32,166 nt of DNA from Deltaproteobacteria bacterium (GTDB taxonomy: Bacteria > Myxococcota > JADLHZ01): positions 1 to 32,166 of the forward strand of contig JADLHZ010000034.1 in assembly GCA_020848545.1 (NCBI GenBank), in the 5' to 3' direction. The notes beneath the pieces are model-generated. The model ran no database searches. It was not told the origin of the DNA and was given only the letters and a program-made list of their open reading frames with translations. Of this stretch, positions 9,997 to 32,043 are shown one piece after another. The first letter of the stretch is position 1. The number at the start of each line of letters is the position of its first letter. The position numbers and the translations under genes are program-made.

Positions 9997-10047
9997 CCGC
10001 GATGTTTATCGGCGTGGAGGGTGTCACCGCGCTGTCGAAGGCGGCGC

Positions 10048-10064
10048 TGTCCGAAAATCGGACA
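10048..10064. promoter_or_regulatory. Palindromic operator (TGTCC-N7-GGACA), copy 1
   Basis: Arms TGTCCGA and TCGGACA are perfect inverted repeats around AAA. The centre is at 10056, 62 bases before the GTG start at 10118. The same dyad recurs at 17591-17611 and 23128-23150 at nearly the same distance from a start codon. Confidence 0.7.
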
Positions 10065-10066
10065 CA

Positions 10067-10092
10067 CGATCGTAGTTCCTCCTCGATCAGCT
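10067..10092 (+). repeat. REP-like element copy on the 5' side of the RAYT gene
   Basis: CGATCGTAGTTCCTCCTCGA followed by TCAGCT matches the left-hand copies with minor end changes. It lies between operator copy 1 and the -10 region of the 10118 gene. Confidence 0.8.
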
Positions 10093-10105
10093 ACCCCGAA
10101 TTGTC

Positions 10106-10111
10106 TACACT
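10106..10111 (+). promoter_or_regulatory. Putative -10 element of a leaderless promoter
   Basis: TACACT fits TAnnnT and ends 6 bases before the GTG start at 10118. No Shine-Dalgarno is visible. The position would place transcription initiation at or next to the start codon. Confidence 0.45.
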
Positions 10112-10117
10112 GAACCC

Positions 10118-12253
10118 GTGCGGATCACCGGCCTGCTCGCGCTCGGCCTCAGCGCCTGTCTCCACTTCGGCCCCGTGCTCGGAGTCGAGGACAACACCGT
10201 CCTCACCGGAGACTGCGTCCCATCGGCCTGCGACGCCGGCAGCTGCGGTGTCTTCGACGACGGCTGCGGGACGGCGCTCGACTGCGGCGGCTGTCCCGAG
10301 GGCGAGACGTGCGGCGGTGGTGGCATCGATCGCACGTGCGGGGCGCCGCAGCTCACGGACCTCGCGGTGGCGCTCGCCAACGTGCCGGCCACGGTCGAGC
10401 TCGGCGCGCCGATGACGTTCGCTGTGATCGCCAGTAACGCCAGCGCGGCGGCCGCCGTCGGCGCCAGCATCAGCGTGCCGTTGCCAGCCCCGTTCTCCTC
10501 GGTGACTTGGACGTGCACGGCGATGGGAGACGCGCTGTGCCCGGCGGCGAGCGGCTCCGGGACGATCGCGGCGGTCGCGCGGATCGGGGCGCTCTCGAGC
10601 CTCACGTTCGCGGTGACGGCGACGATCGCCGTCGATGCGGCCGCGAGCCCGATCACGACGAGCGCGAGCGTCAACGTGACGAGCAGCATCGACCCCGTGG
10701 CGGCCAACAACGTCGCCAATCTGTCGCTTCCCGTCGCGCTCCCCGAGCTCAGCTCGCTCGCGTTGACCGGCGCGGGGACGTTCGCGACCCAGGTGCGGGT
10801 CGGGGTCGGCAACATCACCTTGGCCGTCTCCGGCACAAAGCTGCGCGGCGTCACCGGCCTGACGATCATCCCCGTGGCGGGGGCTGCGCTCGTGGTTTCG
10901 AGTCTCAACGTCACCGGAGCGGCGGCGTTGGGGGCCGTCGTCAACGTCTTGCACGGCGCCGTGGTCGGCAGCTACGCGGTGCGCGCCATCAACGTGGCCG
11001 GCGCGTCGGCGCCGATCGCGCTCGAGGTCACCGCGATCACCGCCGGCGGCAGCGGCACTGACATCGGCCTCGACGCCGTCGGCACGACGCTGAAGCCCTT
11101 TCGCACCTTGCACCACGCGATCTCGGTGGCGGCGTCGGGGGATCGGATCGCGCTCGGCACCGGCGACTACAGCGCCGAGCCATGGCCGGTGTGCGCCTCG
11201 CCGCCGTGCGGATCGACGCTCGCGAATGTGCCTGCGGGCGTGACGATCGAAGGCGTCGCGGGAAGCGCCAGTGAGAGCGCGACCACGGTGACGCACACCG
11301 TGCTCGACGCCGGCTACACCGCGGCCTCGTGCTCGGTGGCCGGATCGGACAACAGCGCCTTCGTTCTCGACGCGGGCGGGAGCCCGATCACCCTGAAGAA
11401 TCTCGCGCTGCGCGGCTTTCGCAACGCCGTCGTCGTTCGCGGCGCGGCCAGCGGACCGATCCCGGCCGGAGACGTGATCCTCGACTCCGTTCGCATCGAA
11501 GGCAACTGCGACACCGGCGTGAACATCAATCGCGGCGTGCGCGTGCGCGTCCGCGGCCCCGCGCTCGGCGCACCGGGGTCGCCGCCGCCGACGACGATCT
11601 ACGGGCATCAATACGGCATCATCGCGACGGGCATCGTCATCGATCACCCGCTCGGCGCCCCGTCGACCAACGTCGCTGAGCTCTTCTTCGATGGGCAAGT
11701 CAACGTCCATGACAACGGCACCGGCGTGGTCGCGCGCAAGGCGGTGCGCGTGCAGGTCAACGGCAAAGCGATCTTCACGCTCAACGGCATCGGCATCGAG
11801 TTTCAGAACGAGGACAACAACGCCGCCCCTGGCTATTCGCTCGACGTCGTCGCCGACGCCGGCGCGTTTCACGAGTTTCGGCGCCACCCCGGCGTTCCGA
11901 TCTCGACCCGAGCGCGGACGCGCATTCGGCGTACGCACTTCTCCAACGCCGCCAGCTCGGGGACGCCGCCGCCGATGTTCATCATGCAGCAAAGCGGGCC
12001 CTGCTTCGCGCTGCAGCTCGGCGATGGGGCGGAGCGCGGGGACAACGACTTCGCGCTCTCGCAGCTCCCGGTGAACAGCGCCGACTCCGTCGGCATCCAG
12101 GCGGCCTCGCCGCCCTGTCCGGTCGAGATGAGTGCCAACACGTGGTCGTCCTACCTTGGAGCCCTCGGCGCGCCGGCGCCGGGCAACTACCCGGGGACGC
12201 TCAGTCCGTATTGGACCAACGGGCCGGTCGATGTGTTGCCCGACCCACCGTAG
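10118..12253 (+). CDS. DUF11/DUF1565 right-handed beta-helix lipoprotein
   Basis: GTG 10118 gives a compact lipoprotein signal (LLALGLSAC, lipidated Cys14) in a 711-residue product. Residues about 33-75 form a cysteine cluster (GCGTALDCGGCPEGETC) common in myxobacterial surface proteins. Residues about 85-210 resemble DUF11 (DLAVALANVPATVELGAPMTFAV). An IPT/Ig-like stretch follows. From about residue 325, TTLKPFRTLHHAISVAASGD is the DUF1565 signature leading into a parallel beta-helix (TLKNLALRGFRNAVVVRG, DSVRIEGNCDTGVNINRG). Such helices bind or modify surface polysaccharide in some families, but no catalytic residues were identified. It is probably a single-gene unit driven by the promoter and dyad directly upstream. 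Confidence 0.92.
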   Translation: MRITGLLALGLSACLHFGPVLGVEDNTVLTGDCVPSACDAGSCGVFDDGCGTALDCGGCPEGETCGGGGIDRTCGAPQLTDLAVALANVPATVELGAPMTFAVIASNASAAAAVGASISVPLPAPFSSVTWTCTAMGDALCPAASGSGTIAAVARIGALSSLTFAVTATIAVDAAASPITTSASVNVTSSIDPVAANNVANLSLPVALPELSSLALTGAGTFATQVRVGVGNITLAVSGTKLRGVTGLTIIPVAGAALVVSSLNVTGAAALGAVVNVLHGAVVGSYAVRAINVAGASAPIALEVTAITAGGSGTDIGLDAVGTTLKPFRTLHHAISVAASGDRIALGTGDYSAEPWPVCASPPCGSTLANVPAGVTIEGVAGSASESATTVTHTVLDAGYTAASCSVAGSDNSAFVLDAGGSPITLKNLALRGFRNAVVVRGAASGPIPAGDVILDSVRIEGNCDTGVNINRGVRVRVRGPALGAPGSPPPTTIYGHQYGIIATGIVIDHPLGAPSTNVAELFFDGQVNVHDNGTGVVARKAVRVQVNGKAIFTLNGIGIEFQNEDNNAAPGYSLDVVADAGAFHEFRRHPGVPISTRARTRIRRTHFSNAASSGTPPPMFIMQQSGPCFALQLGDGAERGDNDFALSQLPVNSADSVGIQAASPPCPVEMSANTWSSYLGALGAPAPGNYPGTLSPYWTNGPVDVLPDPP

Positions 12254-12357
12254 GCCGTTGGCGGCGCAACGGCGTGTTCGCGACGGCGCAAGCGATCGGG
12301 CTCAAGCGCACCGCTCGCATGGGGTAGCCGAGGTCCTTGACACAAGACTGAGCAGAG

Positions 12358-12389
12358 GGCGACACGTGAACGGTCGCCGTCAGAGGAAC
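12358..12389 (+). promoter_or_regulatory. 5' leader hairpin and Shine-Dalgarno of the methyltransferase gene
   Basis: GGCGAC (12358-12363) and GTCGCC (12373-12378) are perfect inverted arms around nine bases. AGAGGAA (12383-12389) then sits four bases before ATG 12394. A TTGACA hexamer is present at 12337-12342, but no good -10 follows it. Confidence 0.4.
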
Positions 12390-12393
12390 CAGC

Positions 12394-13173
12394 ATGGCCG
12401 TCGATTTCGGGAAGACAGCCAACGACTACGTCAAGTATCGGGCTGGCTTCCCCGATTCGGTATTCGACATCTTGGCGTCGCGCGGGATCATCGCGCCTCG
12501 AATGAAGGCGGTGGACCTTGGAACTGGTACCGGCGTCGTCGCTCGAGCGCTCGTAGAACGTGGTCTCCACGTCGTCGGCGTCGACCCCTCGGCCGAGCTG
12601 CTCGCCGCCGCACGAAAGCACGGCCCCAAGTCCATCATCTATGTCGAGGGGAGCGCGGAATCGACTGGTCTCGAGCAATTGTCGTTCGACGTCGCGATTG
12701 CCGGTCAATGTTGGCACTGGCTCGACGGTGTTGCGGCGGGGCGCGAAGCGTATCGATTGCTCAAACCCGGAGGCTGCTTGGCGATCGCGCATCGCGATTG
12801 GATCGAGCTGCCCGACAACGTTCCCGGGCAAACGTCCGCGCTGATGGAAAAATTCAACAGCGATGAACGTGCGTGGCTGCCTGAGCGGCTGAGCTTACGT
12901 TCCGGCATCTATCCTCGCTGGTTTTCCGATCTCAGGATGACGGGATTCGGTGAGATTGAATCCTGCACCTTCGATTTCACACTGCCGTTCTCGCATGATG
13001 AGTGGCGCGGACGGATGCGCGCATGTTCCAAGATCGGCGCGTCGCTACCTGCTGCTGCGGCCGAACGCTTCGACTCTGAGCTCGAAGCTTTGCTCGAAAA
13101 GCAGTTCCCGGCCGAACCACTCATCATTCCGCACCGGGCCTTTCTCGTGTGGGGTAGGAAGCCCTCCGCGTGA
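12394..13173 (+). CDS. Class I SAM-dependent methyltransferase (Methyltransf_11 type)
   Basis: This is a 259-residue cytoplasmic protein. Motif I is VDLGTGTGVVARAL (residues about 40-53), the SAM-binding glycine loop. Motif II has the acidic residue in VVGVDPSAELL. Motif IV is FDVAIAGQCWHWLD, and RLLKPGGCLAIAHRDW is the post-III strand. The opening FGKTANDYVKYRAGFPD is typical of small-molecule methyltransferases of the Methyltransf_11 group. The substrate cannot be read from the sequence. The start is supported by AGAGGAA upstream. It stands alone between converging and unrelated neighbours. Confidence 0.93.
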   Translation: MAVDFGKTANDYVKYRAGFPDSVFDILASRGIIAPRMKAVDLGTGTGVVARALVERGLHVVGVDPSAELLAAARKHGPKSIIYVEGSAESTGLEQLSFDVAIAGQCWHWLDGVAAGREAYRLLKPGGCLAIAHRDWIELPDNVPGQTSALMEKFNSDERAWLPERLSLRSGIYPRWFSDLRMTGFGEIESCTFDFTLPFSHDEWRGRMRACSKIGASLPAAAAERFDSELEALLEKQFPAEPLIIPHRAFLVWGRKPSA

Positions 13174-13520
13174 ACGATTGTCGACGCTCGGGCTGAATCG
13201 ATAGTCACCGGATAGTTTTTGCACCGCCAGCAGGTATTCTCGACGAACGCTACGCAATCGCTGCGACTGCGCCGGCCGGCGTCGTCAGTCATGCGACGGC
13301 GCCGAGGCTGCTGCGATCACCAAGGCGGCCTTCAAGCACGGTGCGAACACGCAACACCGTCATGTCCTCGCCGTTTGGTTGGGTCGGGGGAATGCCCATC
13401 AGCTCGAGCCTTCTGCACGCGAGAATACGCTGGATCCTCTCGCGAGGTGAACCAGTAAGGCGCGTCGTGCGCCAAGCGCGAAGGTAGCGAAAAGGACGAG
13501 GCTCCGCCGCGATGGCGGGC
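13174..13520. other. Intergenic region between convergent genes; no gene recognised
   Basis: The methyltransferase and the minus-strand peptidase gene converge here. Open frames are short, arginine-rich and lack ribosome-binding sites. GGCGC/GCGCC arms at 13459-13473 and CCGCC/GGCGG arms at 13504-13518 could form hairpins. The second, read on the minus strand just after the peptidase stop, is followed by TTTT only after a gap, so it is a weak terminator candidate. Confidence 0.5.
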
Positions 13521-16079
13521 TCAGAAGGGCGGCGCGACGAACCTGACGCGCACCGATCGCGACGCCGTTTGGCCGTTGGCGTCGGTCACGTGGAGCGAGA
13601 GGTCGCCGTGTCCGTAGTCGATGCAGGCGCCCTTGTCGTAGACTGGCGTCCAACTCGGCGCCCCGCCAAAGCCGACGTCAATCTCTGGGCAGCCGTCCTT
13701 ATCCGTGAAGTGCCAGGTCCAGCGATACTGTAGCGGTTCGGCTCCGCCGCTCGCCGTGCCGATGAGGTTCAGCGTCGCCATCGATCCCCAAGTGCCCATC
13801 TTCAAGTACGGATCGTAAACCGGGTTTTGCGTCGCCTCCGGTCCTGCGAGGAGGAGGTTTCCGTCGATGGCGATGGTCGTCACCAGCGGCACCGGTGGTG
13901 GGTCGACCACGTTCACCGTCAGTAGGGTTGACGCCGTCGCGTTGCCGACGTCCGTTGCCGAAAGCTGGATCGTATGGGCGCCGTTGCTGGCGAAGCTGCT
14001 CATCTGGCTGCACGCGGTCGATCCCAAGACGTTCCCGTCGATCGTCCAATGGCAAGGGAGGTCGACGATGAAGCCCGAGCCGTTGTCACCCCTTGCTTCG
14101 CCGACCAGCTGAAACAGCGAGCCACGGGAGATATTGGCAAACGGCGAGATGATCGACACTTGCGGCTTGCCGAAGCCGCGGCGCACCGCAACGAAGCTCG
14201 CAGAGCCCCCGCCGACCGTGCCGGCCATGACGCCTGTTTCGCCGCCAAAGAGGTAACCCTCGTAGCTCTGCCCCTGGAGTTGGAAATGGAACGAGCGCGG
14301 GTTCGCGCGACTCACCGTTGCCACGAGCGCGCCGCCGCCCCACTCGTTGCCAGTGACCAAGCCGGTCTCCGAAGCGACCGCGCGGACGGTGAAGCTCCCG
14401 CTCGGAATGTCTTTTCCGTAAACCTGCCACTCGCCGACGTAGGAGGCGAACGAGACTCCCGTCGTCACGGCTTCTCCCACCAAGTAGCGGGCCTTGTTGC
14501 CATAAAAACCGTAGGTTTCCCCGTCACGGTTGTCGTGCACGGTGCCGGCCACGGTCTCATTGTCATCGGCAAGGAAGCCGGAGAAATGGAGCCCACTGAG
14601 CTCGCCGTAACCGCGCGCGCCGGTGTTGCCCCAATCGATGTAAAAATCGATGTGGCGGCCATTGATGACGCCATTGACCCGTCGCGCCTGATTGTCCGGG
14701 CCGTAGTACGTGCCGAGACGATGGTCGGCGGCGCCGCTCTTGAAGGCGAAGACCGCCGAGTCCGGCGCGTGGTAGATATCGAGCAGCCCTTGCCATCCGT
14801 CGTGATCGAGGTGGTAGCGCCCGAGAAAGAGCTGCTCCGGTGGCGGGGCAGCATTTGGCGGCGCCACCGCCCCGATGACGGCCGCCTCGTAGATCTTGCG
14901 CTCGGTGACCCATTGGTAGCTGAACCAAACGTAGCCGTCGTCGGCAAAACCCGTGCCCCAAGAGTTCTTCACGCGAAACGCCTGCTTGGCATCGTCGTAG
15001 CCTATGATCAGCATCGCGTGCCCGGCCCAGAATGTCTTCCCCGGCTCCCACACGTCATTGGTCCACTTCGCGTCATCGTCCAAACCGACAGAGAAGGCGA
15101 TCTCGTGGCCGCTCGCCACCTGGCGCTTGTACCAATCCAGCGAAGCGAGCTGCGTCCCCGAGGCAAACAGCGCTTGCGTCGAGGCATATCGAGCGGTCGC
15201 CTGAGCATTCGGCGGAAACATCGTCGTGGTCAGCGCCCACGGGATGTTGAAAGTCGCCGGGACTCGACTGAGATTGACATCGTCGGCCACCCGCTGCGGA
15301 CTCGTGTAAGCGATCGCCGGATTCCAGGAGGCCGTCATCTGCAAGCTACGGCTGCTCACATAGGGCATGGCTGACTCCTCCGGCAGCGCGAGCTTGCCAC
15401 TGCTCAGCAGTCGGAGGTTGTAGACGACGCTGCCGCCGCCCCAGGTGCCCACAGTGTTCTCCATCTGACTTGGCGGCTTCGGGCGGTGGTCACCGTTGAC
15501 GTCCACGACGGTGTCCCAAGAGTCGAGGGTGTCCATCTTCTGAATGTGGTTGAGCCACTGCTCGGAGAGATCCAAGGTGACGCCGTGGGTTCGCTTGTAC
15601 GCGGCCTCGATCGCAGCCACGGTGGCGAAGTCAATGCAGGTGTCGCGGCCGCCCTGGTCCTTGACCGGCGTCTGAAAGCCAGAAAGGTCGACGCTCGCCG
15701 GCAGCTGTTCCCGGGCCGGCCCGCCGGGAGCCACTTCCGCGACCGGCGCAAAACGATCCTGGTACCAGAGCATTTCCTCTCGAGGCATCAGTAAGACGGT
15801 CGAGCCGTCCGGAAGCTTGAGCGCGGGCCTGCCCTCGACCGTGACGGCCTCTCCGATCGCGGTGACCGCCTCGGGGCCCGTCTGCGAAGTGGTTGCCTCG
15901 CTCGGCGCTGGTCCGCTCGTGCTGCTCGCGTCGGCATTCACAGCGATCGTCTCGACCCGGCGGTGGTCGCGCCAAGCGCCCGCACTGCACGCGACGAGCA
16001 GTGCGGCCGCGCACAGACATGAGTTCACTGCGATGCGCGAGCGGATTCGACGTGGGTGGGCTTTGTTCTCGTATGGCAT
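13521..16079 (-). CDS. Secreted lipoprotein papain-like (C1-type) cysteine peptidase with C-terminal Ig/PKD-like domains
   Basis: ATG 16079 follows AGGAGG on the coding strand. The 852-residue product has an N-terminal signal ending in a lipobox (ALLVAC, lipidated Cys31). A papain fold follows: oxyanion Gln142 and nucleophile Cys148 in PVKDQGGRDTCIDFATVAAIE, His354 in GHAMLIIGYDD, and Asn372 in VKNSWGTGFADDGYVWFSY. The whole catalytic set is therefore present. The Cys motif is DTCIDFA rather than the classic GSCWAF. The region from about residue 410 to 640 is beta-rich and not recognised. Two Ig/PKD-like domains end the protein (PQVSIISPFANISRGS; DPYLKMGTWGSMATLNLIG). It is expected on the cell surface or in the periplasm. 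Substrate unknown. It is the last gene of a minus-strand group. Confidence 0.9.
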   Translation of the reverse strand: MPYENKAHPRRIRSRIAVNSCLCAAALLVACSAGAWRDHRRVETIAVNADASSTSGPAPSEATTSQTGPEAVTAIGEAVTVEGRPALKLPDGSTVLLMPREEMLWYQDRFAPVAEVAPGGPAREQLPASVDLSGFQTPVKDQGGRDTCIDFATVAAIEAAYKRTHGVTLDLSEQWLNHIQKMDTLDSWDTVVDVNGDHRPKPPSQMENTVGTWGGGSVVYNLRLLSSGKLALPEESAMPYVSSRSLQMTASWNPAIAYTSPQRVADDVNLSRVPATFNIPWALTTTMFPPNAQATARYASTQALFASGTQLASLDWYKRQVASGHEIAFSVGLDDDAKWTNDVWEPGKTFWAGHAMLIIGYDDAKQAFRVKNSWGTGFADDGYVWFSYQWVTERKIYEAAVIGAVAPPNAAPPPEQLFLGRYHLDHDGWQGLLDIYHAPDSAVFAFKSGAADHRLGTYYGPDNQARRVNGVINGRHIDFYIDWGNTGARGYGELSGLHFSGFLADDNETVAGTVHDNRDGETYGFYGNKARYLVGEAVTTGVSFASYVGEWQVYGKDIPSGSFTVRAVASETGLVTGNEWGGGALVATVSRANPRSFHFQLQGQSYEGYLFGGETGVMAGTVGGGSASFVAVRRGFGKPQVSIISPFANISRGSLFQLVGEARGDNGSGFIVDLPCHWTIDGNVLGSTACSQMSSFASNGAHTIQLSATDVGNATASTLLTVNVVDPPPVPLVTTIAIDGNLLLAGPEATQNPVYDPYLKMGTWGSMATLNLIGTASGGAEPLQYRWTWHFTDKDGCPEIDVGFGGAPSWTPVYDKGACIDYGHGDLSLHVTDANGQTASRSVRVRFVAPPF

Positions 16080-16206
16080 TCTTGCCTCCTGCGAGAACTA
16101 CCCGCCGGGGGCCGAGGCCGATTGACGAGTGATTGCGCCAGGCGGCCAAAGTCTTTCGCCGGCGCGGCAAAAGAGCGTTCTTCACGCAACCTGGTCTGGT
16201 TCCCGA

Positions 16207-16677
16207 TCATGATGGCGGCAGCCGCGAGACGACGGTAAGCGCCAGCTGCTTGAGCGCGTCGAGGCTCGGCCTGCCCGCAGGCGCGGTTTCGATGACCGCG
16301 AAGAAGCGCCCTTTGCTGCGCACAGACAGGATGATCTGCACGCTGCCCGCGCTGTCGCCTTGCACAAATGCCGCGTCGCCAATGCCGGTGAGGTCGCTCG
16401 CCGCCACGGCGTGCTTGCGATCGTAGTCGAAGCGCCTCTGCGCCTCGCTCGCGCTCTCGGCGTAGAACGTCAGGTCTAGGTTGCTGCCGTCGGCCATGTC
16501 CCAATTGCAGGACTGGTTCTCCGCGCGACCCGGGCCGAAGGGCAGGCCGGTCGCGGCACCGACCTCGGCTTGACTGAGCAACGCGCAGACGTCGATGGTC
16601 TGACTCGCAGGGGCTGGTGCGCCGCAACCGGCGAGCACGACGACGAAGGTCATTGTCCAAGAACGACTGATACGCAT
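16207..16677 (-). CDS. DUF3558-like lipoprotein
   Basis: ATG 16677 was chosen because it follows GGAAGG on the coding strand and yields a clean lipoprotein signal (MTFVVVLAGC, lipidated Cys17). A longer frame back to 16794 has no signal. The 156-residue product carries the DUF3558-type pattern: DVCALLSQAEVGAATG, then QSCNWDMADGSNLDLTFY with a likely disulphide between the two cysteines, then GIGDAAFVQG and IILSVRSKGRFFAVIE. Proteins of this type are secreted and of unknown function. It lies 37 bases downstream of the AraC regulator and 127 bases upstream of the peptidase on the same strand, so the three may be co-transcribed. Confidence 0.82.
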   Translation of the reverse strand: MRISRSWTMTFVVVLAGCGAPAPASQTIDVCALLSQAEVGAATGLPFGPGRAENQSCNWDMADGSNLDLTFYAESASEAQRRFDYDRKHAVAASDLTGIGDAAFVQGDSAGSVQIILSVRSKGRFFAVIETAPAGRPSLDALKQLALTVVSRLPPS

Positions 16678-16714
16678 TGGGGGTTCCTTCCGTTCTCCAA
16701 AATGACACCGCGTT

Positions 16715-17422
16715 TCACGCGGCACATCGATCTTCCGTGCTCTCGCCGCGCTCGAGGGCGCGCCAGCGCTGAGGGGACATGCCCTCGAGCTCACGAAAGA
16801 TCTGGCTCAAGCGCGACCCGCCCTGCAGGCCCACCTCGAAGGCGATGCGCTTGATCGGCTGATTCGTCCGCGCGAGCAGCTTCTTCGCTTGCGCGAGCCG
16901 CGACTGCTTCAGCTCGCGCTCGAAGGACGTGCCGGCAGCGCGCAGTCGGCGGCGCAGCGTGCGCACAGACATCGCCAGGTTCGCGGCGACGCCGTCGATC
17001 GATCGTGCCGAGCCATGGCGCATCAGGCATTCGCGCAAGCGACAACGGACGTCGAGGGCGACCGGATCGCTTTGGCGAAAGCTCGCGGCGAACTGAACGA
17101 ACGCGGTGTCATCGACGCTGCGCGCGCTCGCACACGGCTCGCCGAGCTCGACAGCGAGCCCTGCGATCGACATACCGATCGTCCCGGCGGGACGCACGAG
17201 CACACTCGCGACCGCGCGGGGCCAGCCTGACAGGAGCGTCAGCAGCGCGTCGTCATCGACGCCCGTCACCGTCTCGAATGAGACGACGATGCGCGCAGCG
17301 GGCGTCTCGAGCAGCTCTACGATCTGGCTGGCGACGGGCTGGCTCAAATGCCCCCAGACCATGATCCCGAGCGTTCCCTCTTGGGCGTAGGCGGCGCATT
17401 GCGTGCGTTCTTCGTGGTCCAT
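16715..17422 (-). CDS. AraC-family transcriptional regulator
   Basis: The C-terminal ~95 residues form a double helix-turn-helix of the AraC type (GVAANLAMSVRTLRRRLRAAG; IKRIAFEVGLQGGSRLSQIFRELEGMSPQRWR). The N-terminal ~130 residues (GTLGIMVWGHLSQPVASQIVELLE ... ARIVVSFETVTGVDDDALLTLLSGW) resemble the STAS-like sensing domain found in some myxobacterial AraC proteins. ATG 17422 was chosen because this domain begins just after it. The frame stays open upstream, but that stretch has no domain and overlaps palindromes. Length is 235 residues. It is divergent from the TPR/OMP operon at 17660, so it could regulate either that operon or its own downstream lipoprotein and peptidase genes. Confidence 0.87.
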   Translation of the reverse strand: MDHEERTQCAAYAQEGTLGIMVWGHLSQPVASQIVELLETPAARIVVSFETVTGVDDDALLTLLSGWPRAVASVLVRPAGTIGMSIAGLAVELGEPCASARSVDDTAFVQFAASFRQSDPVALDVRCRLRECLMRHGSARSIDGVAANLAMSVRTLRRRLRAAGTSFERELKQSRLAQAKKLLARTNQPIKRIAFEVGLQGGSRLSQIFRELEGMSPQRWRALERGESTEDRCAA

Positions 17423-17509
17423 ACTCCACCCGACGCAAGCCTCATGCCGGCTTTGGCTAACCGCTGTCAGCGCGACTTCATTGAGGAAATTCCTGCTCGG
17501 ATGGACGGA

Positions 17510-17523
17510 GTGTAACGTTACAC
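17510..17523. promoter_or_regulatory. Perfect 14-bp palindrome GTGTAACGTTACAC
   Basis: The sequence equals its own reverse complement. It lies 88 bases upstream of the AraC start in the divergent region. Such dyads are typical binding sites for dimeric helix-turn-helix repressors of the TetR kind. No regulator is assigned. Confidence 0.5.
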
Positions 17524-17590
17524 GGTGTCTCGTGACGTCGGCCTCTATCGCAGCCCAAGGGGGCGCTATTCCTCCCACCTGAAAAGCGAA

Positions 17591-17611
17591 AGTGTCCGAT
17601 TTTGGGACACT
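17591..17611. promoter_or_regulatory. Palindromic operator (AGTGTCC-N7-GGACACT), copy 2
   Basis: Seven-base perfect arms surround GATTTTG. The centre is at 17601, 59 bases before the GTG start at 17660 and 47 bases before the putative -10. It lies between divergent genes, so it is not a terminator. Confidence 0.75.
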
Positions 17612-17647
17612 CGCGACAAGGCGAGCCGCAAGCGATTTCGCCTGTGT

Positions 17648-17653
17648 TAACGT
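17648..17653 (+). promoter_or_regulatory. Putative -10 element of the first TPR/OMP operon
   Basis: TAACGT fits TAnnnT and ends 6 bases before GTG 17660. No Shine-Dalgarno is present between it and the start. Confidence 0.4.
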
Positions 17654-17659
17654 CAATGC

Positions 17660-18244
17660 GTGCTCGCGTTCATCACTGCTTCGATCATCACCGCCGCGTG
17701 CTCGCAGAGCGCGCGCGACATCGACGAAGCGGCAGACGCGTTCATCGCCGCCTCCGAGAAGTTGGCCCAGGGTCTCGCCGGCGAAGGCACGAACGCGCTT
17801 CGCGCGTTGTCGGCGAAGCATCCCTGGTTCGCGGTCGCGCAGCTCGAGCTCGGCCGCGCCGAAGACGCCAGGCACAGCTGGCTCTGGGCGTACGTCGCGT
17901 ACAAGCGCTATCTCGTCGCCGCGCCGAGCACGCCGGACAAAGCCGCGATCGCGGCACGTTTGCTCGAGCTCGAAGACAAGGTCCCGGCGCTGAAAGACTT
18001 TGGCGACGGTGAGCGCGCGGCCGCTGCCGGAGACTGGCGCGCAGCGATCACGGCGTTCGAAGCGAGCATCGCCAAGAAGCCCGCCTTCACCCTTCCCTAC
18101 CTCGCGCTCGCGGACGCGAAGGTGCGCCTCGGCGACAACACCGGCGCCAAGATCGCGTATGCTGCCTACCTCGAGCTCGATCAAGACGCGCCCGATCGCA
18201 AAGAGTGCACGGCGATCCTCGAACGTTTGCGGAGGGAGAAATGA
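17660..18244 (+). CDS. TPR-a lipoprotein, first cassette
   Basis: GTG 17660 is the only start available after the in-frame stop at 17648, and gives a short lipobox signal (MLAFITASIITAAC, lipidated Cys14). The 194-residue product is almost all helical, with about three TPR-like units. The family signature PWF (residues 55-57) ... AQLELGRAEDARHSW ... YVAYKRYL (to 85) is shared with the proteins at 18884, 26937 and 28260. The ending YAAYLELDQDAPDR is also shared. AQLxxxRxEDxR makes it the partner of 26937 (type a). TPR scaffolds bind peptides or assemble complexes, here probably in the periplasm. Its stop overlaps the OMP start by ATGA, so the two are co-translated and probably interact. Confidence 0.85.
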   Translation: MLAFITASIITAACSQSARDIDEAADAFIAASEKLAQGLAGEGTNALRALSAKHPWFAVAQLELGRAEDARHSWLWAYVAYKRYLVAAPSTPDKAAIAARLLELEDKVPALKDFGDGERAAAAGDWRAAITAFEASIAKKPAFTLPYLALADAKVRLGDNTGAKIAYAAYLELDQDAPDRKECTAILERLRREK

Positions 18245-18900
18245 TCGCGCGCGGCATCGCGATCGCTCTGGTCCTCGGCGGCATGCTCGCCGCGCGTGCC
18301 GCCTACGCCGTCGACAGCGTGCCGCTCGTCGCGCCCATCGTCGCGCCCATCGTCGCGCCCATGGTCGATGCGTCGTCGTCTGTGCGCCCCGCGGCCCGCC
18401 GCGCCGACAGCGGCCGTGATCGCGCGCGGCTCTTTCACCTCGGCTTGCGCGCGTCGGGCTTGGTGCACGCCGGGGGCGCTGGGCCCATGGGCGTGCTCGA
18501 GATCGGCGTGCGCTTTCCGTTCGCCGGCCAGCGTGTGGGCGTCATGTTGGCGCCGAGCATCGCCGGCACCTTCGGCCGCGTGCCGGTCGCGTCGCGCGCG
18601 GTGATCATCGGGGTGCCGCTCGCCTTGACGTTTCACCAAGCGCTCGGCGCGGGCTATTTGCGCGTGCACGCCGGACCTGCGCTCGATTGGGTGAGCGCGG
18701 TCGCCGAAGACAGCGTGGAGACGCGCGTCGATCAATATGCGTCGCTCGGCGTCGTCGCCGGCGCGGGATACTTACTCGACGCCGGCCCCGGCAAGCTCGT
18801 CTTCGACGCCGGCTATCGCCTCCTTTCTCATGTCGTCTTCGGTACGCGCGTGACGGCCCACATGGCCGGCATCGGGGTGGGCTATGCGTTTTGGTTGTAG
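18241..18900 (+). CDS. OMP-a, small outer-membrane beta-barrel, first cassette
   Basis: ATG 18241 overlaps the TPR-a stop (ATGA) behind GGAGGGAG. The 219-residue product has a Sec signal (GGMLAARAAYA) and a short PIVAPIVAPMV repeat. It then shows alternating amphipathic strands of a small barrel, perhaps eight to ten strands. The segments LEIGVRFPF, PLALTFHQALGAGYLRVHAGPALDW and the final GYAFWL match the other three OMPs. The FHQALGAGYLRV segment matches 27572 best (SYHERLGSGRLRV), which defines type a. A terminal aromatic/hydrophobic strand is normal for barrels assembled by BAM. Function unknown. The next gene starts inside its last codons. Confidence 0.82.
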   Translation: MIARGIAIALVLGGMLAARAAYAVDSVPLVAPIVAPIVAPMVDASSSVRPAARRADSGRDRARLFHLGLRASGLVHAGGAGPMGVLEIGVRFPFAGQRVGVMLAPSIAGTFGRVPVASRAVIIGVPLALTFHQALGAGYLRVHAGPALDWVSAVAEDSVETRVDQYASLGVVAGAGYLLDAGPGKLVFDAGYRLLSHVVFGTRVTAHMAGIGVGYAFWL

Positions 18901-19576
18901 CGTCCTCTTCTTATTGGGCGCGTGCGCGGCGGAGCAGAGCGCCGCGCCGGCGTCAGCGCCCTATCGCGTCGTCGCGTTCGCGCCGACGTGCGACGATGCG
19001 ATGCCCCGCCCCGGCGACGTCGTGCGCGACGTGATGCTGCGCTACGCGAAGGCGACGCGCCTCGCCCGCTCCGACGATGAGCAAGCACGCGCAGACGCCG
19101 TGCGCCTACTGACCGAGCTCGCCGGTGAACGGCCGTGGTTCGTGCACGTGCACCGCGCGCTCGGCATCGCCAACGGCTTCGCCGGCGCCTGGTTGTCTTC
19201 CTACGTCGCGTACAAACGTTACCTGCAGCTCGACGTGCACGCCGCCGATCGCGCCGACGTTCGCGCGCAGTTGTACGTGCTCGAGACGAAGCAATCGGTC
19301 TTGAAGCGCTACGCCGAAGCAGAAGAGGCGGCGACGCGCCTCGAGTGGGCGAGCGCGCTGCAGTTGCTCGAGGAAGTGCTGGCGCGAAAGCCGAGCTTCC
19401 CGCTCGCGCATCGCCTGCTCGCGATCGTGTATGCGTCGACCGCGCGCGCCGAGGAGGCGATCGACGAGTACGAAACCTATTTGAAGCTCGATGCGCTGGC
19501 GGTCGATCGCGACGCCGTCGAGACGATCATCCATGACACGCGCGCTGCGCTCGCGCGGCAGCGGGAGACGCGATGA
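18884..19576 (+). CDS. TPR-b lipoprotein, first cassette
   Basis: ATG 18884 is embedded in the last 17 bases of OMP-a (GGCTATGCGTT). It gives a lipobox (SVLFLLGAC, lipidated Cys14). The 230-residue product has an N-terminal linker, then helical TPR-like repeats. The signature is PWF at 84-86 and AWLSSYVAYKRYL at 102-114, with LAHRLLAIVYASTARAEEAIDEY and YLKLDALAVDR near the end. The RLLAIVYAS segment pairs it with 28260 (RLLGIAYAS), which defines type b. It is a likely periplasmic scaffold for OMP-b, whose start overlaps its stop by ATGA. Confidence 0.88.
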   Translation: MRFGCSVLFLLGACAAEQSAAPASAPYRVVAFAPTCDDAMPRPGDVVRDVMLRYAKATRLARSDDEQARADAVRLLTELAGERPWFVHVHRALGIANGFAGAWLSSYVAYKRYLQLDVHAADRADVRAQLYVLETKQSVLKRYAEAEEAATRLEWASALQLLEEVLARKPSFPLAHRLLAIVYASTARAEEAIDEYETYLKLDALAVDRDAVETIIHDTRAALARQRETR

Positions 19577-20169
19577 GCCTCATCCTCGTCGTCGTGGCGC
19601 TGTTGAGCGCCGAACAGCAGGGGCGCGCGTTCAAAGTCGGCGAAGAGAACGCGCGCGAGGCCGCTGTAGAAGATCGCCTGGACGGCCGCTTCATCATCGC
19701 GCCGAAGCTCGCCGCGGGATATAGCGTGGCGCCGCCCGCGGGGTTCGCGCTGCGCGGCGCGCTCGAGCTCGGGTATCGCTTGCCGTTTCTGCGCGGCCTC
19801 GTCGGCTTGTCGATCGAGCCCGGGGTCGGCGGAGCGTGGGTGGCGGGGCGCGCGGGCGTGGCGTTCTCGGTGCCGCTCTTGCTCAGCGCCAACATCGTCG
19901 CCGGGCCGGGGATGCTGCGCGTCCTCGCCGGGCCCGCGCTGGATTGGCAGCGTGTCGAAATTCCCATCGCTGAAGAAAATGTGAGCGACGAGACCTTCGC
20001 TCTCGGCCTTGCTGCCGGGGTGAGCTATGGGCTCGTCCTCGGCACAGAGGTCGCCACTGGGGTCGCCGGGATCGAGGCGCGCTATCGCGTGGCAAACGTC
20101 GGGGTCGGTGGGGTGGTCACAACGAGCCACGTGCTCATGTTGGGGTTGGTCTATGCGTTCTTTCTGTAG
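19573..20169 (+). CDS. OMP-b, small outer-membrane beta-barrel, first cassette
   Basis: ATG 19573 overlaps the TPR-b stop by four bases. The 198-residue product starts with a hydrophobic signal-like segment (MSLILVVVALLSA), which is short and lacks early positive charge. Strands follow with the family signature ALELGYRLPFLRGLVGLSIEP, VPLLLSANIVAGPG, RVLAGPALDW and final LVYAFFL. VPLLxSANxxAGPG is shared with 29002 only, defining type b. Its substrate or partner is unknown. Tight coupling to TPR-b and to the lipoprotein that starts inside its last codons suggests the three act together in the outer membrane. Confidence 0.82.
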   Translation: MSLILVVVALLSAEQQGRAFKVGEENAREAAVEDRLDGRFIIAPKLAAGYSVAPPAGFALRGALELGYRLPFLRGLVGLSIEPGVGGAWVAGRAGVAFSVPLLLSANIVAGPGMLRVLAGPALDWQRVEIPIAEENVSDETFALGLAAGVSYGLVLGTEVATGVAGIEARYRVANVGVGGVVTTSHVLMLGLVYAFFL

Positions 20170-23107
20170 CCGGGTCGCGCTCATGCTGCTCGCGGCAGGG
20201 TTTGTCGCGTGCACGCTCACCCACAAGACGACGGGCACCGCGGGCCAAACGGGCACGACGGGAGCGACAGGTGGCGAAGGCGACGCGCCGGCGGTGACGC
20301 TCGTTGGGCCGGTCACGTTCTGCATGGGATCGGCCGCAACGTTGACGCTGGCGTCAGAGCACGCAGAGGGCTACGCGCTCGTCGCCACGCTGGCAGCGGC
20401 GGACGGCGCCACGACGGAAGTGCCGGTCCTCGAGAGCGGAGCCGTCGAGATCTCGGATCGTCTGGCGCTCGCCGCCGGCGTGTACGCGCTCGGCGTTTGG
20501 TTCTTGCGTGACAACGTTTTGTCGGAGCCCGTGTGGTTCCCCGGAGCGCTGACGGTGGCAACGCCGCCCGTCGTCACGACCTTGCTCGCGCCGGAATGTC
20601 AAAGCACCGCGTTCGACACCACGTCCTTTGTTTTGGGCGGCACAGGGCTCGCCGGCGCATCCGCGCGCGTGGAGGCAGAAGGGAGTCTCGTCGCGCTCGG
20701 CGCTGCGGCGAACGCCGAGGGCACGACGCTCACGGTCACGCTGCCGTCAGCGCTCGCGCCCGGCGGACCGTATGCGTTCAGCGTCGTGTCGGCGGCCGGG
20801 TGCGTCGTGCAGGTGCTCGACGGCGCCGGCATGGGCCTCTCGGTGAAGCCGCGGCCGCTCGTCTCCGCGAGCGCTGTTGGCCCGAAGAGGACGAGCGGAA
20901 AAGCGCAGCGCGATACGCACGTCGCGGTGCGCGTGAGCGGCGGCGCGAGCCAGTCCGGCGCCGGCGCGCTCGTCGCGGCGGCCGGTGCGGTGACCGTGCG
21001 CACGATGAGCGGCGCGATCGTGTCGCCGGAGAGCATCGTCGCGCTCGCGTTGCCGGGCGGCGGAACTGACTTACTCGCGACCTTCGCCAAGGACGCGCTG
21101 CCGGCGGAGAGCACGTTGGCGCCGATCGTCGCGCAGAATGGGTGCACGAGCGCCGGTGTGGCGTTCGGCGTGGAAGAGGCGCCGTCGCTCGCTGGCGCGC
21201 TCGCGTCGGTGCGGCTGTCGCCGACGGGATCACCGCTCGATGGCGGCGCGCTCGTCGATCTGTTCACGGCCGGTGCGCTCACCGATCCGACGGTGGTGTC
21301 GATCGACGTCGATCCAGATCCGGCAAACGACGTCTACGTGGCGTTGTCGCTGCACACGGAGCTCGATCGCACGCGGCGGGCGTTGCGTTTTTCGGTGCCA
21401 GCGTCGCAGACCGTCGCGTCGTCGTTCTGGAGCACCCTGCGCGTCGAGGCGCCTGGAGGCGAACGGCTGATCGAGCGGGCTTACTACGTCGTGAACGCGA
21501 GCTCGAGCGACAGCGCTCCTGCACGTGCGCGCGTCCTCTGGAAAGAACGCGACGCGCTCTACGCTGGAGGCGATGCCATGCGCGTCTATGGGTGCTGGCT
21601 GCGTGAAGCCGCGCTGTCGTTTGTCGCGGTCGACGCCGCCGGCGCGGAGCATCCGCTGGCGGCGAGCGCGAGCGGCGTCGATCAGTGGGCGAACGCGAGC
21701 TTTCGCTGCTCTGTGAATCCCAGCGCGTGGGCCGACTCGCACGTGACGATCACGAGCCCGGCGGGGCTCGCGGCGGGGGTGTATCGCTTGCGGGTGAAGG
21801 CGGCGCTCAGCGGCGGCGTGACGACGAGCGAGGATGATCTGTATCCCTTCGTTGTTTACGGCGACACGCCGGCGATGGGGGCGTTCGAGGTGGTGACGGG
21901 GGCCGGCGCGACGTTGAGCGCGGCACGTCGGAGCGCTCACGGGCTAACCGCAGTCGACGCGTTGGGTCGCAAGTACCTTTATGTGATCGGCGGCGATTCG
22001 AACCCCACCGTCAATCCCGCAGCCGTGCCAGTGTCAGCGGCATTGACGACCTACGAATACTCCGCGGTGGCGCCGGACCACACGCTCATCGGTCTCGTCG
22101 CTGTCTCCGGCCCGAACCAAGAGCTGCCGCTGCTCAGCGGCCCGAGCGGCGGGCCGTTCACCGCGCTCAGCGCCAGCTACGCGCCGGCCGTGACGAGCGA
22201 TGGACCGAATGTCTACCTCTTGGGCGGCACTGCGAACGCGACGTCCGCTTCTTCGAACGTCTTTCATGCGACGGTCGTCGATCCGGTGGTCGATTCAGAC
22301 CCCGCGCACCAAGGCCGCTTGAACCCTTTCCTTCAGCACGCGAGCGCCAAGCTCTGCGCCAACGACGCGTGCAGCATCGCCGCGCCGCTCTTCGGTCTCG
22401 GCGCCGAGCTCGTGCGCAACGGCGAGACGCGCTCGATCGTCGCCGTCGGCGGCGCGGCGGCGAACGCGACGATGACCGCGCGCGACGGCGTCACGCACGT
22501 CACCGCCGTTCAGTTGAATACGGCGGGCGCTATCGTCTCCTCCTCGCGGCCGATGACGGCCGTGCCCGCGGCGATCGTGCTGCCGGGCGCGCAGGCGTTT
22601 TCGTTCGTGACGAAGAGCTTCTTGCCGGGATCGGCGAACGCGCTCGTCTGGGCGTTCGGCGGCTTCTCGGCGATCGACGACACCGAGCTCATTCCGCTGG
22701 CCCTCACCGAGAATCGTACGCTCGCCTCTGCGCTGGCGGCGCAGCCTGGGTCGTCGAGCTTCGCCGGCGGCGCGGCGTATGATTTCTGGTCGCACGCGAC
22801 CTTCGTGGCGGGGAAACGCGTGTTTTTGGTGGGTGGTGCTACGCAGACGGGCCTCGGCGGGGGCTCGGTGCCGTCCGTTCTGAATACTTCGGTCTTCGCC
22901 AGCTATGACGCGACGACCGCTGCCATCGGCACACTCCAAGCGAGCCCGCAGAATCTCACCCGAAAGCGCGGCGCCATGGCGTTCGTACACCTGCCACCGC
23001 ATGTCTATTCTTTCAGCGGTCTGATCTGTGATCACGTGACAGAAGTCTGTGCCGGCCCCACCATCGCCCTCAGCCCCGACATCGAGCACGGTGAACTGAC
23101 GCCGTGA
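20153..23107 (+). CDS. Large kelch-like surface lipoprotein following the first cassette
   Basis: ATG 20153 lies inside the last 17 bases of OMP-b and gives a lipobox (LMLLAAGFVAC, lipidated Cys18). An open extension upstream is antisense-like OMP frame and was rejected. The 984-residue product has a short Gly-Thr-rich linker (GTAGQTGTTGATGG). Several Ig-like beta-sandwich segments follow up to about residue 590. A kelch-like propeller then runs over about 600-970, with repeated blades YVIGGDS (about 610), VYLLGGT (687), VWAFGGF (832) and VFLVGGA (890). This architecture suggests a surface-exposed binding protein. As the last gene of the cassette it is a candidate client of the TPR/OMP pairs. 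Confidence 0.9.
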   Translation: MRSFCSRVALMLLAAGFVACTLTHKTTGTAGQTGTTGATGGEGDAPAVTLVGPVTFCMGSAATLTLASEHAEGYALVATLAAADGATTEVPVLESGAVEISDRLALAAGVYALGVWFLRDNVLSEPVWFPGALTVATPPVVTTLLAPECQSTAFDTTSFVLGGTGLAGASARVEAEGSLVALGAAANAEGTTLTVTLPSALAPGGPYAFSVVSAAGCVVQVLDGAGMGLSVKPRPLVSASAVGPKRTSGKAQRDTHVAVRVSGGASQSGAGALVAAAGAVTVRTMSGAIVSPESIVALALPGGGTDLLATFAKDALPAESTLAPIVAQNGCTSAGVAFGVEEAPSLAGALASVRLSPTGSPLDGGALVDLFTAGALTDPTVVSIDVDPDPANDVYVALSLHTELDRTRRALRFSVPASQTVASSFWSTLRVEAPGGERLIERAYYVVNASSSDSAPARARVLWKERDALYAGGDAMRVYGCWLREAALSFVAVDAAGAEHPLAASASGVDQWANASFRCSVNPSAWADSHVTITSPAGLAAGVYRLRVKAALSGGVTTSEDDLYPFVVYGDTPAMGAFEVVTGAGATLSAARRSAHGLTAVDALGRKYLYVIGGDSNPTVNPAAVPVSAALTTYEYSAVAPDHTLIGLVAVSGPNQELPLLSGPSGGPFTALSASYAPAVTSDGPNVYLLGGTANATSASSNVFHATVVDPVVDSDPAHQGRLNPFLQHASAKLCANDACSIAAPLFGLGAELVRNGETRSIVAVGGAAANATMTARDGVTHVTAVQLNTAGAIVSSSRPMTAVPAAIVLPGAQAFSFVTKSFLPGSANALVWAFGGFSAIDDTELIPLALTENRTLASALAAQPGSSSFAGGAAYDFWSHATFVAGKRVFLVGGATQTGLGGGSVPSVLNTSVFASYDATTAAIGTLQASPQNLTRKRGAMAFVHLPPHVYSFSGLICDHVTEVCAGPTIALSPDIEHGELTP

Positions 23108-23127
23108 CTCGCACCTCGTACCACATC

Positions 23128-23150
23128 GAGTGTCCCATAATCGGACACTC
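23128..23150. promoter_or_regulatory. Palindromic operator (GAGTGTCC-N7-GGACACTC), copy 3
   Basis: Eight-base perfect arms surround CATAATC. The centre is at 23139, 61 bases before ATG 23200. It also lies 20 bases after the stop of the preceding gene, but no T-run follows, so the operator reading shared with copies 1 and 2 is preferred. Confidence 0.75.
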
Positions 23151-23185
23151 CCGTCTTCGTCCCCCCGAGGCGCCTCCGACCGGAG

Positions 23186-23191
23186 TACCAT
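23186..23191 (+). promoter_or_regulatory. Putative -10 element upstream of the 23200 gene
   Basis: TACCAT fits TAnnnT and ends 8 bases before ATG 23200. GGAG at 23182-23185 is too far from the start to be a good Shine-Dalgarno. Confidence 0.4.
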
Positions 23192-23199
23192 CGCTCCTG

Positions 23200-26100
23200 A
23201 TGCATCCACTGAAGCATCCACTGCTGCATTCGCCGCTGGCCGCGCTCGCGAGCCTCGTGCTTCAGAGCTGCCTCATCGGTGGCGTCTCCCTCGTCTTCCC
23301 GAAAGACACCTCACCGACCCTCGAGAGCTGCACCGGCGAGCAATGTCCCGCCACAGTGGACGACCCCGGCGCTGGGACGGCGAACCCCCGTACGCTCGAC
23401 GTCGATCGCGAACGCTCGTTCCTCACGCTCGACCGCGAGAGCATCCCGGCAGACGATGCCGAAGCGCTGCACGTCACCGTGAACCTGCGCGACGTCACCG
23501 GCTCCTCGGTCGAAGGCGCGGTCGTCACGCTGAGCGCCGGCGGAAAGCAAAACTCGATCACCCCCGCTGCGGCGATCGCGAGCGACAGCAAGGGCCAAGC
23601 GGTCTTCACGCTCCGCTCGAAGCTCGCCGAAGAGAAGACGGTCACCGTCGCACTCGAGGGTTCCGACAGCGCGCTCTTCGTCGCGACCGTGCGGTTCACC
23701 CAAGCCATCGCCGACCCCGCCACCTCCACCGTCACGCTTTCGCTCGAGACCGCGATCAAAGCCGACGGCCTCGACTTCACCGCGGCCACCGTCGTCGCCA
23801 AGACCGCCGCCGGCGGCATCGCCTACGGCGCGCCCGTCACCATCGCCGCGGACGACGACGCCACCTTCGCCACCTCACCCACGGTCGGCTTCGACGGCAA
23901 TGCGATCGCGCAAGTGCGCTCGCGAACGTCCGGAACGAAACAGCTGTCGATCAAAGTCGGCGACGTCACCTTGGCAGTAAAGCCCTTGGTCACCTTCGTG
24001 ACGGTGGCGATCTTCCAAAGCGCGATCAGCGTCACCATCGCGTCGAACGTCGCCGTCGCCGATCTCGCCGACGGCATCGAGATCGATGTCGTCGTCCCCA
24101 CCGTGACCGGCGGCGTCACGCGCGATCACGCGGTGGCGATCGACGTGAGCGGCTCCGGCAACCTGCTCGTGCCAATCGGCACCGCAGACGAGCCGAGCTC
24201 ACGCCACGTGCTCGTCACATCAGCGAAGGCGGAACAGAAAACGATCACCGTGACCGTACCAGACGCGCCTGCGCTCGCGCCGGTCATCGTCTCTGTCGCG
24301 TTCGTTGCTGGCCCGGCCGTCGCCGCGCAGAGCACGTTCACTTTGGGCCCGCCGCGCTTGTCGCCGGCGATGACGGCGTCGGGCCAAGTGACGCTGAAGG
24401 ACAAGTTTGCGAACTTTTGCCCCGGCGCCACGGTGATGTTCAGCGGCACTTCGGGCCTGATTCCCGCCGGCACGTCGGCCAACACCGATGCGTTGGGCCA
24501 GGTCAACGTCAGCGCCACACTCACCGCGACCGGGCCGCAAACGATGACCGTGCAACTGCAATCCGGCGACGCGCTCGCCGTCACGCTCGACGTCGTGGCG
24601 CCCTTCTTCGAGCGCGCACGGCCGCACGACAGCGCTTCCATCCCCGCGCTCGATCCGAGCAATCCGGCGCGCTGGTTCGTCGCCAGCGGTGAGCGCGTGT
24701 TCGAGACGACCGACTCGGGCGCGAGCTTTCATCCGGTGTCGATGACGGGTGTCCCTCCGAGCACGATCGTCGCGCTCGCTGCGCACCCAAGCGCACCAGC
24801 GAAGTTGTTTCTGCGCACTTACAACTCGACCGTCGGGACTCGAACGTTCAGCGGCAACGGCGGCGACTGGACGGAGCTCGGCCCCGAGTACGGCGCGCCT
24901 GTGGACTTTGCCGATCGCGCCGCGCTGGTCTTCGCGCGAGCGGACGCGATCAGCCTACCTTCGCACGTCTCGAGATGCTTGAGCGGAAACGCAACGTCGG
25001 CGGCGGTGACGCTTCGGCGCACCGACGGCGCGAGCACGGCCGCCATTCCGTGGAGCACGGACTTCGGCCCCGGCCGCTACGCGCTCAGCTGGAAGCTCAA
25101 CTTCGCCGACGATCCTTCCGCGACGGCGCCCGGCTCTTTCTACATGGCGTGGGAAGCGGTCACCGCACGTTGCGCCATCGAGCCGACGCAGCTCCATTCG
25201 GGCGCCGTCTATTTTGCGGCTGGCGTTCCGGCGGCGTTCAACAACGCGCGCGACGTGCTCGGGCGCGACCCTGGGCGCTCGGGCTGCATCTTTTATCGCA
25301 TCGATGACCTCCAGATCGGCCGCGAGTGCCTCGACGGCGCGGTCGCGGCGCCGGTCACGGTCCCGCCCGAGGCACAAGGCTACGGCGCCGTGCGCGCGCG
25401 AGCGGACGGCGCCCTCTTCACCGTTGGTCCCACGAAGCTCTTCCGTCACGCGGCCGGCGCTTGGCAGGAGGTTGGCGCGGTCGCCGCAGATCCTGCCAGC
25501 CCCTTCTCGATTCATCCCGCGAGCGCCCCCCTCGCGTTTCTCGGCCAATACCAGCTCCAGGGCGCAACCCTCTCACGCGCCACGCTGAGCGTCCCGAACA
25601 ACAGCGTGCTCGGAATGAGCGTCGAGAACGGCGCGTGGAGCATGGTCGCGCGCGACGGCAGCAGCGCGTTTCGCTTCTCCTTTCCGGCCTCGCCGAGCGC
25701 AGGATGGACCTTCGGCGGCTTGCTCTCTCGGCTCGCGCTCGTCGAAGCCGTGCCTTCACCTGCGAACGACGGCGTCTACTTCGCGCGAAGCGCCACCGGC
25801 GTCTTCGACATCAACGCGACCGCTGACACGCCCGTCACGACCGACACGGCGGCACAAGCGATCGGCACACCGGTGCGCGTCTTCTCGCAGCCTCTGCCAG
25901 CGAGCGTGCGCTACTTGTCGACGAACGCGGGCGTCTATGCGCGCGGCGCCGCCGGGGGTTGGACGAAGATCGCCGCGCTCGGCAATGCCTCGGTGCTCGC
26001 CGTGGATCCAACGGACGGCGCCGTCTTCGCAGCGTCGACGAGCACCGACACGATCTGGCGTTCCACCCTGGGCGGAAGCGTCGCGGTCAACGTTCCCAAT

Positions 26101-26525: not shown

Positions 26526-26741
26526 ATGAGCGATCACAACGAAACCGCATGCGCCTACGCCGTTCGAATGTTGTTCAACGAAGACGAGTTCAAGCAATTC
26601 GAGGCGCGACTCGCGGCGCGCGGCACGACGCCCGCGAGGTTCTTTCGCGGCGTGATGCGCGACTACATGACGCACGATCGCGCAGGTGACTTCGGCGCCG
26701 ATGACGCGATGCAAGCCTACTTGCGGTGGCGGCGGCGCTAG
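26526..26741 (+). CDS. Small ribbon-helix-helix-like protein
   Basis: ATG 26526 follows a strong GGGGGGAGA and starts 14 bases after the lipoprotein stop. The 71-residue product reads as a beta strand then two helices: VRMLFNEDEFKQFEARLAARGTTPARFFRGVMRDYM. This matches the layout of CopG/Arc-type ribbon-helix-helix DNA-binding proteins (strand, helix, turn with G, helix). The C-terminus is basic (YLRWRRR). It may be a regulator or an orphan antitoxin-like protein. No toxin partner is adjacent. Its last 41 codons are duplicated at 31917-32043 with one silent change. Confidence 0.72.
   Translation: MSDHNETACAYAVRMLFNEDEFKQFEARLAARGTTPARFFRGVMRDYMTHDRAGDFGADDAMQAYLRWRRR
26615..26741 (+). repeat. 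127-bp direct repeat, copy 1 (3' part of the small gene)
   Basis: Aligned by eye with 31917-32043 without gaps, it differs only at 26636 (G versus A). The repeat ends exactly at the TAG stop in both places. Confidence 0.95.
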
Positions 26742-31916: not shown

Positions 31917-32043
31917 GGCGCGCGGCACGACGCCCGCAAGGTTCTTTCGCGGCGTGATGCGCGACTACATGACGCACGATCGCGCAGGTGACTTCGGCGC
32001 CGATGACGCGATGCAAGCCTACTTGCGGTGGCGGCGGCGCTAG
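31917..32043 (+). pseudogene. Truncated copy of the small ribbon-helix-helix-like gene (127-bp direct repeat, copy 2)
   Basis: This segment repeats 26615-26741 with one difference at 31938, a silent Ala codon change. Only the last 41 codons are present. Sequence before 31917 does not match the intact gene and lacks its start. An in-frame GTG at 31912 could start a 43-residue product, but without a clear ribosome-binding site. Like the intact gene, it sits right after a large lipoprotein gene. Confidence 0.8.

Follow-up and report, generated by a model that had tools for sequence, protein, structure and literature searches.

A palindrome upstream of about 15–17 promoters in a Myxococcota genome as the predicted operator of a dimeric regulator

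Three similar palindromes precede start codons within a 32,166-nucleotide stretch of DNA from a Deltaproteobacteria bacterium of the phylum Myxococcota (contig JADLHZ010000034.1), hereafter called the window. Do these elements represent binding sites for a shared regulator and, if so, what kind of protein might recognize them and which genes might it control? The original prediction was that they serve a small regulon of surface lipoproteins, activated from near position −60, the class I position known for regulators of the CRP/FNR type. As described below, the portion of this reading that concerns a promoter-associated, non-terminator site near −60 holds up well, whereas the CRP/FNR assignment and the lipoprotein theme do not. 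It is probable that a single dimeric DNA-binding protein, which would most likely be an activator, uses the dyad as its operator near −60 at about 15–17 promoters.

A palindrome family in the window and across the genome

All three predicted dyads were found, at 10048–10064, 17593–17609, and 23131–23147, with centers at 10056, 17601, and 23139. Their distances to start codons and to TAnnnT hexamers are likewise as had been proposed (Table 1). Two copies (10056 and 17601) are indeed positioned between divergent genes, and the third resides between tandem genes, where the stop codon of the upstream gene is at 23107. A loose scan restricted to the window, permitting three mismatches, yielded 12 matches compared to 17.7 expected, which is not significant. 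Thus, the weight of the evidence rests on the whole genome.

Table 1. Positions of dyads, putative −10 elements, and neighboring genes in the window
Feature	Position	Strand	Remarks
REP-associated tyrosine transposase-like gene	8977..9996	−	NF047646, E 1.5e-10, below curated cut-off; divergent, ATG 9996, 60 bp from dyad 1 center
Putative −10 TAAACA	10003..10008	−	For the divergent transposase-like gene; 48 bp from dyad 1 center
Dyad 1, CTGTCCGAAAATCGGACAC	10047..10065	.	Perfect TGTCCGAAAATCGGACA; intergenic, divergent genes; 1 mismatch; profile E 1.4e-5
Putative −10 TACACT	10106..10111	+	50 bp from dyad 1 center; 12 bp before GTG 10118
Predicted lipoprotein, DUF11 domain	10118..12253	+	GTG start, apparently leaderless; 62 bp from dyad 1 center
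AraC-family regulator gene	16715..17422	−	HTH_18, E 1.2e-17; divergent from dyad 2, 179 bp; start uncertain
Dyad 2, GTGTCCGATTTTGGGACAC	17592..17610	.	Exactly the consensus, 0 mismatches; profile E 1.9e-7
Putative −10 TAACGT	17648..17653	+	47 bp from dyad 2 center
Predicted TPR lipoprotein	17660..18244	+	GTG start, 59 bp from dyad 2 center; heads cassette with 18241–18900, 18884–19576, 19573–20169
Dyad 3, GTGTCCCATAATCGGACAC	23130..23148	.	Gap between tandem genes; 1 mismatch; profile E 3e-7
Putative −10 TACCAT	23186..23191	+	47 bp from dyad 3 center
Predicted lipoprotein, Big_1 domains	23200..26511	+	Big_1, E 5.2e-26; ATG start, 61 bp from dyad 3 center

When the 8.0-Mb genome was searched, GTGTCCSATTTTSGGACAC with no more than one mismatch was present at 14 places, and the reversed pattern at none. 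A profile built from 15 sites finds these sites again, 15 in all, at E<1e-3, followed by a sharp drop to E 0.19 for the next new place. Two further variants were obtained by profile search, namely TGTCTCGTTTTCGGACA and TGTCTCGTTCTCGGACA preceded by CGGACA-N3 (C32:47951 and C123:64598). Counted in this way, the 19-base palindrome has about 15–17 copies in the genome. These promoter sites, which include sequences outside the view of the original prediction, lend good support to its proposal of a small regulon.

The length of the spacer is specific. The shorter pattern TGTCCN7GGACA occurs at 29 places in the genome compared to 1 for a control, and spacers of N5, N6, N8, and N9 are found at only 3–6 places each (3 for N6 and 6 for N8, both without the AT core). 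Approximately half of the 29 places represent an unrelated family. Alignment separates type 1, GAGTGTCC-N7-GGACACTC with the core GATTTTG, from type 2, in which TGTCCAACTTCTGGACA is located next to AAAAAGGTCCCAGGGACC. Pooling of all TGTCCN7GGACA sites was rejected because about half belong to this terminator-like TGTCCAACTTCTGGACA/GGTCCCWGGGACC family. The type 2 sequence GGTCCCWGGGACC is present at 78 places in the genome (0 for the control), flanked by A/T runs and often paired with TGTCCAACTTCTGGACA, for example at 4980–5070 of locus L020 and 4950–5040 of locus L021. Type 2 elements lie between convergent or tandem genes (0 of 12 divergent, 4 of 12 convergent) and, judging from these features, appear to be terminator- or REP-like.

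All 15 type 1 sites carry TGTCC/GGACA arms without variation, whereas conservation of the outer arms AAGACGCGAG/CTCGCGTCTT is partial. Most copies share an asymmetric core, with G residues on either side of a T-run in 11 of 15. No decayed copies carrying two or three mismatches were seen in the genome scan beyond chance-like ones. Invariant arms, diverged flanks, and the lack of such decayed copies indicate selection, and the sequences clearly point to present-day constraint on the inner site. The common asymmetric core could reflect shared descent, with an old origin by duplication.

Among 58 genomes of relatives that share only the phylum, just three single motif matches were found, of which the one at L046 appears to be inside a gene. 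A scan of 84,980 species, from which entries for this genome and closely similar ones may be absent, gave 20 scattered stretches, never more than two in one organism; the scale seen here was not matched.

Placement relative to genes and promoters

The sites are not equally common inside genes or far from starts. Each of the 15 strong sites has a facing start codon 41–108 bp away, and gene overlap occurs only once, with the last codons of a neighboring gene. Seven sites are in divergent regions, eight in tandem regions, and none in convergent regions. In addition, 8 of 22 facing starts are 57–62 bp from the dyad center, compared to 1.1 when dyads were placed at random in the same intergenic regions; outside the window the same cluster contains four starts (null 0.88, p 0.008). 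Gene starts were taken from a home-made caller, and those at L052, L053, L057, and L058 were assigned manually.

A second measure, independent of the exact start codons, is the position of a TA dinucleotide of the kind that opens a −10 hexamer. Of the 21 gene-facing flanks, 13 have a −10-like TA 45–51 bp from the dyad center; none of the 9 non-facing flanks does. With dyads placed at random in the same intergenic regions, the mean was 2.3 and the maximum 8 in 5,000 trials, and 13 was never reached, although the resulting p-value is slightly optimistic because the range of 47–50 bp taken from the three window cases was widened to 45–51 bp after all flanks had been viewed. The 12 sites outside the window constitute a largely independent check, with nine such TA dinucleotides compared to 1.7 expected and a null maximum of 7. 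The TA is missing from the expected distance in 8 of the 21 facing flanks, including those of L019, L017, L054, L023 (minus strand), and L052. Of the two additional variants, C32:47951 (L107), which was outside the test set, fits the arrangement with a TA at 49 bp and an ATG at 64 bp from the center; C123:64598 has no TA at the expected distance.

If the −10-like elements are used to set transcription starts, the dyad center would fall at about −58 to −63, in agreement with the class I activator position originally proposed. Measured against these inferred elements only, the site has the class I arrangement of an operator upstream of −35 and near −61. For comparison, Escherichia coli CRP class I sites such as that of lac are centered at −61.5 (PMC6301791). 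At seven promoters (window 10118, 17660, and 23200, together with L022 minus, L055 minus, L052 plus, and L057 minus), the start codon coincides with the predicted transcription start, so the corresponding mRNAs are likely to be leaderless. In the divergent regions at window position 10056 and at L055, one dyad is correctly spaced for both genes.

Competing readings and the family of the regulator

One alternative is that the dyads are small, mobile REP-like palindromes whose dispersal is due to a REP-associated tyrosine transposase (the product of 8977–9996 would be one candidate), and that their promoter location is incidental. Two sites adjoin genes of this type (the window gene and one at the left end of L058), the outer arms are partly common, and most copies carry the asymmetric core GATTTTG. 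However, REPs usually number more than 100 per genome (PMC2817692), compared to the 15–17 copies here, and a decaying mobile repeat would leave the degenerate copies that the genome scan did not reveal. Such elements should be intergenic with high copy number and no promoter preference, unlike the dyad, which avoids convergent regions and keeps the same distance to a −10-like TA at nine gene-facing flanks outside the window, where 1.7 would be expected. The genome's own REP/terminator-like family, the type 2 repeat, also behaves differently. We therefore regard a REP-like origin of the placement as unlikely.

A role for the three window dyads as terminators or as RNA hairpins in the transcript is highly improbable. 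The RNA is predicted to fold into a hairpin of −12.9 to −15.2 kcal/mol, but there is no T-run, the divergent locations do not suit a terminator, and the asymmetric core has a mixed orientation relative to the genes. Moreover, the inferred transcription starts are downstream of the dyad, which thus would not be transcribed with its target.

The sign of regulation is a separate matter on which sequence alone is silent. An operator can be palindromic for a repressor or a dual regulator as well, and in divergent regions the dyad could bridge two promoters. However, a site at about −60 is upstream of the usual polymerase footprint rather than over the −10/−35 elements or the start, and the promoters have no evident −35 elements, which suggests the need for an activator. 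A repressor or dual regulator in place of an activator is accordingly given only a small chance.

We favor an activator, and infer that one predicted dimeric regulator would bind the dyad with its center approximately 60 bp before the transcription start and bring in RNA polymerase at promoters where a −10 element is present and a −35 element is not evident. In divergent regions, a single site could serve both genes. About one-third of the facing starts would probably give leaderless mRNAs, and the other targets would carry leaders of 30–45 bases.

The assignment to the CRP/FNR type is not borne out. CRP sites are even palindromes, TGTGA-N6-TCACA. All 15 sites here are odd, TGT-N11-ACA, compared to TGT-N10-ACA for CRP and MrpC, and membership in the MrpC/CRP group was rejected on this difference in spacing. 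The genome has 15 HTH_Crp_2 matches, and none adjoins a site. The dyad does resemble the E. coli lac class I arrangement as a dimeric-looking palindrome about 60 bp before an inferred start (PMC6301791), but it is an odd, 17-bp element with a TGTCC half-site. Likewise, the site of MrpC, a CRP-family protein of Myxococcus xanthus, is TGTYN8RAC, and its regulon shares TGTC/GACA half-sites and palindromes at promoters; the dyad described here is one base pair wider, and about 15 near-identical copies contrast with more than 1,000 putative degenerate MrpC sites (PMC4320627).

The odd T-N11-A dyad with its N7 spacer better fits the sites of LysR-type regulators than those of CRP/FNR proteins. TCC-N7-GGA is present in 15 of 15 sites; the sites had been chosen on the basis of an N7 spacer, yet across the genome this spacer length is specific. 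Features in common with LysR-type regulators such as BenM and CbnR are the T-N11-A box, here within GTCC-N7-GGAC, the odd dyad, the position near −60, and the frequent divergent promoters. Unlike sites of those regulators, the outer TGTCC bases are also invariant, there are 15–17 dispersed targets, and none of the seven LysR genes in the genome is near a site, either beside or divergent from a target. Global LysR regulators can lie away from their targets, and thus the missing neighbor does not exclude this family, although the dyad is not assigned to it here. CutR, a LysR-type protein, works from a T-N12-A site at −60 and has no activation or second site (PMC12609908).

The AraC-family gene divergent from dyad 2 is not clearly a target, and a role for its product as the regulator is possible but unsupported. 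AraC proteins usually bind direct repeats. A perfect 14-bp palindrome, GTGTAACGTTACAC, at 17510–17523, about 90 bp upstream of this gene, is a candidate for its own operator.

Predicted targets and their biological meaning

Targets were annotated with Pfam and by reading of the sequences. In the window, they are the lipoprotein genes starting at 10118, 17660, and 23200 and the transposase-like gene at 8977–9996. Outside the window, lipoproteins are represented by one with RCC1 repeats (L016) and a further one (L052). Release factor 3 and a secreted protein are the targets at L017; L019 has both an FHA protein and an operon that includes an HHH/ComEA-like gene, and L023 has coaBC and dprA. At L022, the gene for a metallophosphoesterase precedes that for a Fic-domain protein, and at L057 the target is an eCIS_core-domain protein, with E 3.7e-4, just short of the curated cut-off. 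L054 and L056 encode two proteins in which a common stretch is visible by eye, and L058 has a transposase-like gene. The remaining targets are uncharacterized genes. The transposase-like gene in the window is single copy by the query used, which recovered only itself in the genome.

Given this mixture, the concept of a surface-lipoprotein regulon fares poorly. Lipoproteins account for 5 of 19 targets overall compared to 8 of 119 other genes (p 0.018). Outside the window, however, the numbers are 2 of 15 compared to a background of 8 of 106 (p 0.36), and therefore the theme stems from the window itself.

Several other features of these loci were recorded. A possible effector-like group comprises the dyad-linked genes at L057 4050–4952, L022 844–4137, L054 3854–4912, and L056 1686–4907, all on the minus strand. 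Within the window, a TPR protein (carrying a lipobox in some cases) is paired with a small protein that is possibly barrel-like, and this pair is repeated to give four copies at 17660–20169 and 26937–29739, with the dyad only at the first. An exact 105-bp direct repeat (26637–26741 and 31939–32043) includes the last part of a small reading frame, and a large protein in which YD/RHS-like repeats can be recognized by eye is encoded upstream of the dyads, at 323–5485, without a dyad of its own.

We speculate, with rather low confidence, that a lineage-specific global activator might jointly switch on surface lipoproteins, candidate secreted effector-like proteins (the eCIS_core-domain protein, the Fic-domain protein, and the two large proteins with a region in common), and genes for DNA uptake or mobility (dprA, the HHH/ComEA-like gene, and the REP-transposase-like gene). 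Its operator would be one not seen in other sequenced species, with many leaderless targets and one site serving two divergent genes.

The proposed regulon is new but of an ordinary kind, and introduces no new principle of regulation. It is compact and sharply defined, with 15 strong sites, about 20 genes, and a predicted operator and promoter architecture, and it emerged from sequence alone in a lineage without a close relative among the genomes compared. It yields testable predictions for leaderless promoters that lack −35 elements, and the dyad would provide clean bait for the regulator.
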